Source: Candidatus Sulfurimonas ponti
Lineage (GTDB): Bacteria > Campylobacterota > Campylobacteria > Campylobacterales > Sulfurimonadaceae
Reading direction: 5' to 3'
Assembly: GCA_014381585.1 (NCBI GenBank)
Contig: JACNLH010000125.1
Coordinates: forward strand, 1 to 37,528
DNA: 37,528 nucleotides
Made by a program: the position numbers and the translations under genes. Shown piece after piece: positions 269 to 30,929 of the stretch (positions are counted from its first letter, which is position 1; the number at the start of each line of letters is the position of its first letter). Below the pieces are notes generated by a model that saw nothing but the letters and a program-made list of their open reading frames with translations, searched no databases and was not told the origin of the DNA.

Positions 269-595
269 ATGCTAAAACTATTGCTATTGCTTACTTTACT
301 TATAAATATCCATGCAGGTTCTCTAAAAAAAGCAGACCGCTATTTAAGACAAAACCAAACAGATAAAGCCATTGAATACTATCAAAAAGCTTGTAATGAA
401 GGTGTTACAGAAGGCTGTGATAAATACAATGAACTTCAAAGCCCGATTACAAAAGCATTCACACTTATCAGCCAAAGCAGAGGTGAAGAAGCCATGCCTT
501 ATCTTAAACAGGCTTGCCAGGAAGGTTTCTCCTGGGCTTGCACAATGTATGAATCCGCCACAGGAAAGTCTATTACTTCACCTACGCCTCCTTGA
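269..595 (+). CDS. Small exported protein with Sel1/TPR-like repeats
   Basis: In-frame ATG at 269 follows AAAGGAAAAAAG and starts a signal peptide (MLKLLLLLTLLINIHAG). Two repeats, AIEYYQKACNEGVTEGCDKY and AMPYLKQACQEGFSWACTMY, match the Sel1-like pattern. The 167 start of the ORF track looks too far upstream. Confidence 0.7.
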   Translation: MLKLLLLLTLLINIHAGSLKKADRYLRQNQTDKAIEYYQKACNEGVTEGCDKYNELQSPITKAFTLISQSRGEEAMPYLKQACQEGFSWACTMYESATGKSITSPTPP

Positions 596-639
596 TTAAA
601 TCCTAAAAAAAGCTTATAATAACTGCGGAGGCTGGAATT

Positions 640-1803
640 ATGAAAACAAAATCATTTTTAAAAAAACTTCAAAAACTTCAAAAGAAAAGTGATGTTGACT
701 CCATTCATGCTTTACGCATACATTGCAGAAAGATGCTTTCATTAATAAGTGCGGATGATCAGTTTTATACAGCTTTGAAAAAAATTATAAAATTGACAAA
801 TAAGATTAGAGATTTAGATGTTTTTTTACAAGAGTATCTTGATTCCCTTCCCAAAGAGCATCAAAATCAAATTGATTTGAAAAAGATACAAAAAGATACA
901 AATAAGAGTAGAAAAAAGCAAGTCTCCAAACTTCATGCATTTATAGCTTCCTTAGATGTTCCCAAATATATAGAACTCGAGAATAAGCAAAGTGATATGC
1001 TCCAAGATTACAATAGAGAAGCTCTGACACTAAACCAAACTCAGCTTCATAAATATAGAATTCACATAAAAAAAAGATTATATGTAGAATTAAATAATGA
1101 ATTTGCAGATGAAGAAAAGGTGAAAATTTTAACAAGTATAAAAGATTTACTAGGAACTATAAATGACAACTTCAATGCTTTAAAAAGATTAGATTCATTC
1201 AGCATAGACCATATATCCTTTGAACAAATATATGAATATACGCAGACACAGAATAAAGATTTATATGAAAAGTTTAAAAAACTGGATAAACAATACAGGG
1301 AAAAAGAAAGTATGAAAAAGTTATACATCATAAGACATGCAAAATCAAGTTGGAAAGACAGTTCCTTGGATGACTTTGATAGACCTCTAAATAAAAGAGG
1401 TCAAAAAGATGCACCGTTTATGGGGAAAAAATTAAAAGAAAAGCATATATTTCCAGATATCATAATCTCAAGCGCAGCACTTAGGGCAAAAACAACAGTT
1501 CAACTCATTGCAAAAGAGCTGGGCTATACTAAAGATATCTTATTTTCAAATGATATCTATGATTGTTCAAGTGATACACTTCATAAGATTTTAACTAAGA
1601 TGGATGATACTTATAAAACGGTTTTTTTATGCGGGCATAACCCTGAACTTAATATGCTTGTGGAAATGTACATAGATTTTGATGAAAATATTGTCACCTG
1701 CGGTATTGTAGAAATTGAATTTTCTTGTGAGAAATGGGCAGATATAAGTGCAGAAAATGCCAAACTTTTATCGTTTGAATATCCAAAAAAAATCTTCAAC
1801 TAA
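640..1803 (+). CDS. CHAD domain-SixA-type histidine phosphatase fusion
   Basis: GGAGG upstream. N-terminal CHAD motifs IHALRIHCRK and LHKYRIHIKKRLY; C-terminal LYIIRHAKSSWKD...DRPLNKRG...GHNPELN typical of SixA/RHG phosphatases. Confidence 0.8.
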   Translation: MKTKSFLKKLQKLQKKSDVDSIHALRIHCRKMLSLISADDQFYTALKKIIKLTNKIRDLDVFLQEYLDSLPKEHQNQIDLKKIQKDTNKSRKKQVSKLHAFIASLDVPKYIELENKQSDMLQDYNREALTLNQTQLHKYRIHIKKRLYVELNNEFADEEKVKILTSIKDLLGTINDNFNALKRLDSFSIDHISFEQIYEYTQTQNKDLYEKFKKLDKQYREKESMKKLYIIRHAKSSWKDSSLDDFDRPLNKRGQKDAPFMGKKLKEKHIFPDIIISSAALRAKTTVQLIAKELGYTKDILFSNDIYDCSSDTLHKILTKMDDTYKTVFLCGHNPELNMLVEMYIDFDENIVTCGIVEIEFSCEKWADISAENAKLLSFEYPKKIFN

Positions 1804-2024: not shown

Positions 2025-2058
2025 AGCATGACATCTTTGCCTTGGAAGGTGTCATGCT
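2025..2058 (+). terminator. Probable hairpin terminator after the 44-aa peptide gene
   Basis: AGCATGACA ... TGTCATGCT inverted repeat followed by ATTTTA; short U tract. Confidence 0.5.
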
Positions 2059-8078: not shown

Positions 8079-9005
8079 ATGCGTGGTTATAAAGTTTTTG
8101 CCGGTAGTGCCAGTATTGAGTTTGCAAAAGAAATTTGTCAAGTTCTAGATATTCCATTAGGCAACGCCGATACAAAAAGATTCAGTGATGGTGAGATCTC
8201 TGTGCAGATCGCAGAATCTGTTCGTGGTCGTGATGTTTTCATAGTCCAATCAACCGGTGCTCCATCAAATGACAACTTAATGGAACTGCTCATCATGACA
8301 GATGCATTAAAACGTTCATCCGCTTCAAGTATCACTGCTGTTGTTCCTTATTATGGTTATGCCAGACAAGATCGTAAAGCTGCTCCTCGTGTTCCAATTA
8401 CAGCTAAACTTGTTGCAAATATGTACGAAACTGCTGGTATAGATAGAGTTATCACTATCGACTTACATGCTGGTCAAATTCAAGGCTTTTTTGATATTCC
8501 TGTTGATAACCTTTATGGTTCAATCACATTTGAGCATTACATAAAAAGTAAGAACCTTAAAAATCCAATCATCGCTTCACCGGATATCGGTGGAGTTGCC
8601 CGTGCGAGATACTTTGCTAAACGTATGGGTTTAGAGATGGTTATCGTGGATAAACGTCGTGAAAAAGCGAATGAAGCTGAAGTTATGGGTATCATAGGGG
8701 ATGTTAAAGGCTACGATGTAATCATGATAGATGACATGGTGGACACTGCCGGAACTATGGTGAAAGCTGCAACTGCACTGAAAAATAAAGGTGCAACTTC
8801 TGTTATGGCATGTGCCACTCATGGAGTTCTTAGTGGAAAAGCATATGATAACCTGGACCATGGCGAGCTAGATGAGCTTATCATCACAAACACATTGGTT
8901 ACCAAACCACATAAAAATATTAAAGTCTTAACAGTGGCTCCTCTTTTTGCAGAAGTGATTCGTCGTGTTTACCACAACGAAAGTGTTAATGGTCTTTTTG
9001 AATAA
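8079..9005 (+). CDS. prs: Ribose-phosphate pyrophosphokinase
   Basis: VVPYYGYARQDRKAAPR and VIMIDDMVDTAGT PRPP-binding motif. Confidence 0.97.
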   Translation: MRGYKVFAGSASIEFAKEICQVLDIPLGNADTKRFSDGEISVQIAESVRGRDVFIVQSTGAPSNDNLMELLIMTDALKRSSASSITAVVPYYGYARQDRKAAPRVPITAKLVANMYETAGIDRVITIDLHAGQIQGFFDIPVDNLYGSITFEHYIKSKNLKNPIIASPDIGGVARARYFAKRMGLEMVIVDKRREKANEAEVMGIIGDVKGYDVIMIDDMVDTAGTMVKAATALKNKGATSVMACATHGVLSGKAYDNLDHGELDELIITNTLVTKPHKNIKVLTVAPLFAEVIRRVYHNESVNGLFE

Positions 9006-30512: not shown

Positions 30513-30929
30513 TTATGAAATTTCTCTCTCAGAAAAGAAAAATGCAATCTCAATAGCTGCATTTTCTACAGAGTCACTTCCGTGAACTGCATTTGCATCT
30601 ATATTTTCAGCGAAATCTGCACGAATTGTACCAGCTTCAGCTTCTTTAGGATTTGTAGCACCCATTAAATCACGGTTGATTTGCATAGCATTTTCACCTT
30701 CTAAAACAGTTACAACCACTGGACCGCTAATCATAAAATCAACCAAGTCTCCAAAGAAAGGTCTCTCAGAGTGAACGGCATAAAACGCTTCCGCATCCAT
30801 ACGTGAAAGTTGAATCTTTCTTGTTGCAGCCACTTTAAGTCCGTTGCTCTCAAATCTGTCTAAAATTTTTCCGATAACACCTTTAGCAACTGCATCTGGT
30901 TTAATTATTGATAGTGTTCTTTCCATCAA
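30513..30929 (-). CDS. ndk: Nucleoside diphosphate kinase
   Basis: [14 protein letters not shown] ... [12 protein letters not shown] active-site His. Confidence 0.97.

Follow-up and report, generated by a model that had tools for sequence, protein, structure and literature searches.

The closest described counterparts of the gene analysed here are the CHAD proteins, or phosins (SsCHAD, CtCHAD, PptA and ygiF), and the phosphohistidine phosphatase SixA of Escherichia coli. With the CHAD proteins, our gene product has in common the Pfam domain, the HxxR...R motif, a basic character and a predicted helical fold; however, its CHAD part is shorter and diverged, and its partner is a histidine phosphatase, whereas theirs is CYTH or none. 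The CYTH-CHAD protein ygiF resembles it in that a single polypeptide carries both CHAD and a domain of phosphatase type, but the catalytic domain of ygiF has an unrelated fold and its CHAD is C-terminal, while in our protein CHAD lies N-terminal to the histidine phosphatase and Pfam gave no match to a CYTH domain. The substrates reported for E. coli SixA are NPr, Ndk and PfkA, together with ArcB in vitro (PMC12934123, PMC7948535). The fold of this enzyme and its catalytic residues (R-H, R and H) are found again in our protein, in which, in contrast, the phosphatase is C-terminal to CHAD, scores under the TIGR00249 cut-off and is encoded in a genome without the NPr family.

Genes of these two kinds have been seen close to each other and to polyphosphate (polyP) genes. 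Histidine phosphatase genes are common 3' of ppk (PMC8003754), and many organisms have CHAD genes in the vicinity of ppk or ppx; in biomining archaea, a SixA-PPX-dTMP kinase-CHAD gene cluster has been described (PMC10892726). As at our locus, the SixA and CHAD genes stand together in that cluster; unlike at our locus, they are separate genes and PPX is included. We found no description of a one-polypeptide CHAD-SixA in the open papers searched, of which a single one mentions both the CHAD domain and SixA, as separate genes; judged on these papers, the form appears to be undescribed so far.

The gene lies on a 37,528-nucleotide stretch of Candidatus Sulfurimonas ponti (hereafter the window; contig JACNLH010000125.1) and occupies positions 640..1803 of the plus strand, encoding 387 amino acids plus a stop codon without any internal stop. 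A preliminary description had read it as CHAD and a SixA phosphatase in one polypeptide. With the phosphatase taken as SixA-like, this reading was borne out by the unbroken open reading frame and by scores above the Pfam cut-offs for both domains, so that the concern that profile searches might miss one of them is settled; a chance open frame was also ruled out, since each half matches its own family independently. The short CHAD domain corresponds to about residues 1-222 (640..1305), as defined by the Pfam and fold matches, and the SixA-like part, a histidine phosphatase of branch 1, to residues 225-387 (1312..1800), as defined by Pfam His_Phos_1, the structure 2rfl and its residues. The junction was placed at residues 223-224 (1306..1311), between the last CHAD helix (residues 191-223) and the first SixA strand (residues 226-232) in the predicted secondary structure. 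An AlphaFold2 model of the entire protein reached a mean pLDDT of 90.5 and a pTM of 0.75.

Upstream of the gene, a GGAGG ribosome site (627..631) is located 8 nt before the ATG at 640, with a duplex energy of −9.5 kcal/mol. A sigma-70-like promoter match (TTGATT-17-TATAAT, 592..620) agrees with the consensus at 10 of 12 positions, in a region where the count of such matches barely exceeds the chance expectation. A terminator-like hairpin (2025..2058) follows the fused gene and the small open reading frame after it, all of these features being on the plus strand. This small frame (1864-1998), between the fused gene and uvrB, encodes a putative exported peptide of 44 amino acids (MKKLITMALLMGALASSAFAHHMAVYEDAGVNIPSSSPHLDMVF). 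Homologues (52-84%) were present in few congeners, in several copies per genome (three in the window genome); one congener (G032) carries four copies in about 1.3 kb, beside genes seemingly for a molybdate-type ABC transporter.

In the N-terminal half, the Pfam CHAD profile (PF05235) matched residues 8-106 and a second stretch, with an E-value of 9.8e-10 and 39.2 bits against a gathering cut-off of 25.6. The residues of the polyP motif are H23, R26, R30, R57, H137, R140 and K144; an alignment revealed that all of these, as well as D58 and D60, are unchanged across 20 related CHADs. The spacing of H23/R26/R30 (H-x2-R-x3-R) equals that of H29/R32/R36 in SsCHAD, whose mutation lowered polyP binding about 25-fold (PMC6537752). 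The H-x2-R motif recurs in the second half of the domain as H137/R140, and R57 would be equivalent to R69 of SsCHAD, by motif rather than by alignment. With a pI of 9.4 for residues 1-224, this half is basic. When the whole model was compared by Foldseek, the best 50 matches listed were phosphatases only, and hence CHAD was modelled separately. The CHAD-only model (pLDDT 86.8) retrieved only two CHAD structures at a probability of 1.00, its top matches 6qv5 and 6rn5, with TM values of 0.51-0.60 and weak E-values of about 0.02. Compared with its relatives, the domain is about 9 residues short in helix 1, and its long branch in the tree marks it as a diverged member. At two other loci (L070 and L086, in G140 and G074), the CHAD copies are split by a frameshift or have a second fragment nearby, which suggests CHAD decay in some lineages.

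In the C-terminal half, Pfam His_Phos_1 (PF00300) matched residues 228-297 (E = 1.2e-8, 35.3 bits against a gathering cut-off of 21.7), and the catalytic residues RH...R...H are intact as R232, H233, R282 and H333. The closest solved structure is the SixA protein 2rfl (E = 1.7e-15), and the phosphatase half of the AlphaFold2 model matched the same structure in Foldseek with a TM(target) of 0.88 (E = 1.9e-10). The NCBIfam equivalog of sixA, TIGR00249, gave an E-value of 4.4e-13 and 49.4 bits, under its curated cut-off of 74.5. For this reason the half is filed here as SixA-like and not as SixA; of the earlier identification, the fold and the catalytic residues hold, while the score falls short of the equivalog. 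SixA-like sequences also occur elsewhere in the relatives: the genome of G095, which has a fused gene, contains a second, stand-alone sixA (C9:227673-228155), and G324 contains two tandem SixA-like stretches (C6:26947-27984), the second inside a 352-aa open frame, possibly a double SixA protein.

To place the fused gene among its relatives, we surveyed 135 genomes of the genus and 228 of the family. A short CHAD gene was present in 26 genomes, and sixA adjoins it or is fused to it in 25 of them, G035 being the sole exception. CHAD followed by sixA as separate genes was observed in 11 of the 26 (8 in the genus and 3 in a sister genus), the reverse order in another 11, and the fused form in three, namely the window, G111 and G095. 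At the 8 two-gene loci of the genus, the stop codon of CHAD runs into the start codon of sixA, and the two genes are read in different frames; the shared stretch is 4 bp long at seven loci and 1 bp at the remaining one. The order and the spacing of CHAD and sixA differ between relatives. At the three loci of the sister genus, a HypD-like gene stands immediately upstream of the pair, and at one of them (L154) a HypE-like gene follows the pair directly, both genes being named by sequence; at L152 and L154 the pair lies beside Hyp-like genes as if it had moved as one unit. Farther afield, in a Desulfosarcina MAG, sixA precedes a gene of CHAD type (recognized by its visible motifs), after which come parA-like and CYTH-like genes. 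A scan of genome contigs for relatives returned a single distant relative only, plasmids held no fusion covering 80% of the query, and among 397 genomes sampled from the phylum no fusion was detected other than in the genus itself, in a search that distant CHADs may escape.

In a tree built from CHAD and SixA, the reverse-order genes formed one group, G111 and G095 were sisters, and the window gene was sister to the two-gene loci of G143 and G142. A single origin of the three fused genes was rejected (AU p = 0.0006 with CHAD and SixA; more weakly with CHAD alone, p = 0.045). Given that the three do not form one clade, there were two fusion events or more, and in each of them the reading frame underwent a net change at the junction. 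In the window, compared with the relatives, this frame change is situated at or slightly upstream of 1306..1311. The fused genes of G111 and G095 have a common junction; their CHAD parts diverge by 21% and their SixA parts by 10%, with dN/dS values of 0.27 and 0.12, respectively. The common junction and the purifying selection on both parts indicate that the fusion is not a mere error in these two species. From the overlapping genes in relatives and the repeated fusion, we infer that the CHAD and SixA-like parts very probably work together. The single polypeptide of the window is not an isolated case but belongs to a conserved overlapping gene pair that was fused more than once.

The window fusion itself could be an assembly or sequencing artefact, in which an extra base in the A6 (1276-1281) or the A5 (1301-1305) homopolymer, both just 5' of the junction, hides a true ATGA overlap. 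The draft genome comprises 182 contigs, and one base fewer would give exactly the ATGA overlap of the sister species G143 and G142; the ATGA is still there at 1312..1315, its TGA in the +1 frame, as an overlap site of the ancestral type that is now out of frame. Against this, no frameshift interrupts ten long conserved genes of the window, all of full length, which speaks for a sound sequence, and the fused form with a common junction exists in two other species. We consider an artefact quite improbable. The preliminary description had named such an indel, joining two normally separate genes, as what would undo its reading: in relatives the two are indeed separate genes as a rule, with an overlap in different frames, but the fusion in G111 and G095 is natural.

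The preliminary description had also pointed to an internal ATG that could yield SixA alone. This codon exists at 1312, is homologous to the sixA start of the two-gene relatives, and is retained in all three fused genes. It is preceded by AGGG (1297..1300), a possible ribosome site at a spacing of 11 nt, which is long, with a duplex energy of −4.6 kcal/mol. Comparable energies (−4.6 to −4.9) were calculated for the true starts at 8079, 14354 and 33579 of the window, and 13% of internal ATGs have a site of −4 or better. In the nearest two-gene relatives the sixA ribosome site is weaker (−3.1), so that sixA may rely there on translational coupling. As far as these signals go, production of SixA alone from ATG 1312 is possible.

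Taking these results together, we lean modestly towards the view that the gene encodes a polyP-anchored phosphohistidine phosphatase. The polyP-tethered phosphatase proposed earlier is the best-supported reading, given the conserved CHAD residues, the basic pI, the presence of PPK1 and PPK2 and the CHAD-sixA linkage. The CHAD part would bind polyP chains or granules and hold the SixA-like part there, and the latter would strip the phosphate of a phosphohistidine from a polyP- or NTP-handling enzyme. In the two-gene relatives, the unit would be a complex of the two coupled gene products. Both PPK1 and PPK2 are encoded in the window genome, and polyP is therefore likely made; four PPK2-type matches were recorded on its contigs C162 and C132, two of them adjacent. 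The co-occurrence with PPK1 was discarded as functional evidence, because almost all of the genus has PPK1, whether the pair is present or not. One genome with the CHAD-sixA pair (G085) gave no PPK1 match, and in the window genome the pair does not adjoin ppk.

As for the substrate, PTS-HPr, the family of NPr, is absent from the window genome and has a match in 1 of the 135 congeners. An NPr of the E. coli type is thus not supported, and the substrate should be another one. The leading guesses are the phosphohistidine intermediate of PPK1 and Ndk. PPK1 of E. coli reportedly acts through a phosphoenzyme intermediate, according to a paper of 1990. A catalytically impaired EcPPK1 has been obtained by mutating two histidines (PMC6537752). 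A phosphatase held on polyP would sit near PPK1. Ndk is a candidate by analogy with E. coli, where SixA dephosphorylates the Ndk intermediate and so promotes survival of starvation (PMC12934123); the window encodes an Ndk (nucleoside diphosphate kinase) in a gene unlinked to the fusion (30513..30929, minus strand), which matches NCBIfam NF001908 over its cut-off. The outcome would be a local brake, or a futile-cycle valve, on the exchange between polyP and NTPs. The full version of this proposal, in which the single tethered protein dephosphorylates phosphorylated PPK1 (or Ndk) at the granule and the internal start additionally yields SixA by itself, has in our judgement a rather low probability.

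Two other explanations deserve consideration. The fusion may have no special meaning, if CHAD and SixA form a two-subunit complex in the relatives and a one-base shift at the ATGA is near-neutral. Most relatives keep two genes, order and spacing vary, a frame change alone suffices, and the sixA start kept in the three fused genes would perhaps still allow some SixA to be made from the internal ATG; however, the fused form arose twice and was kept across the split of G111 and G095 with both parts under purifying selection, and we regard this explanation as unlikely, though it carries some weight. It is less probable, to our mind, that the phosphatase has the ends of polyP or a small phosphorylated metabolite as its substrate, and not protein phosphohistidine, with CHAD raising its processivity in the way proposed for the CYTH-CHAD protein ygiF. 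Such a role would agree with the increase in polyphosphatase activity that CHAD confers on ygiF (PMC6537752), with the varied substrates of branch-1 histidine phosphatases and with the missed SixA equivalog cut-off, but the closest structures are those of SixA, and the literature searched contains no CHAD-bearing histidine phosphatase that acts on long polyP.

For the reading of a polyP-anchored phosphohistidine phosphatase, the fused gene offers a single soluble protein for the joint study of polyP binding and the removal of phosphohistidine. The repeated fusion and the near-universal linkage in the family indicate that CHAD and SixA share one job. If true, the stripping of a phosphoenzyme on the polyP granule would represent a novel way of controlling polyP synthesis locally.
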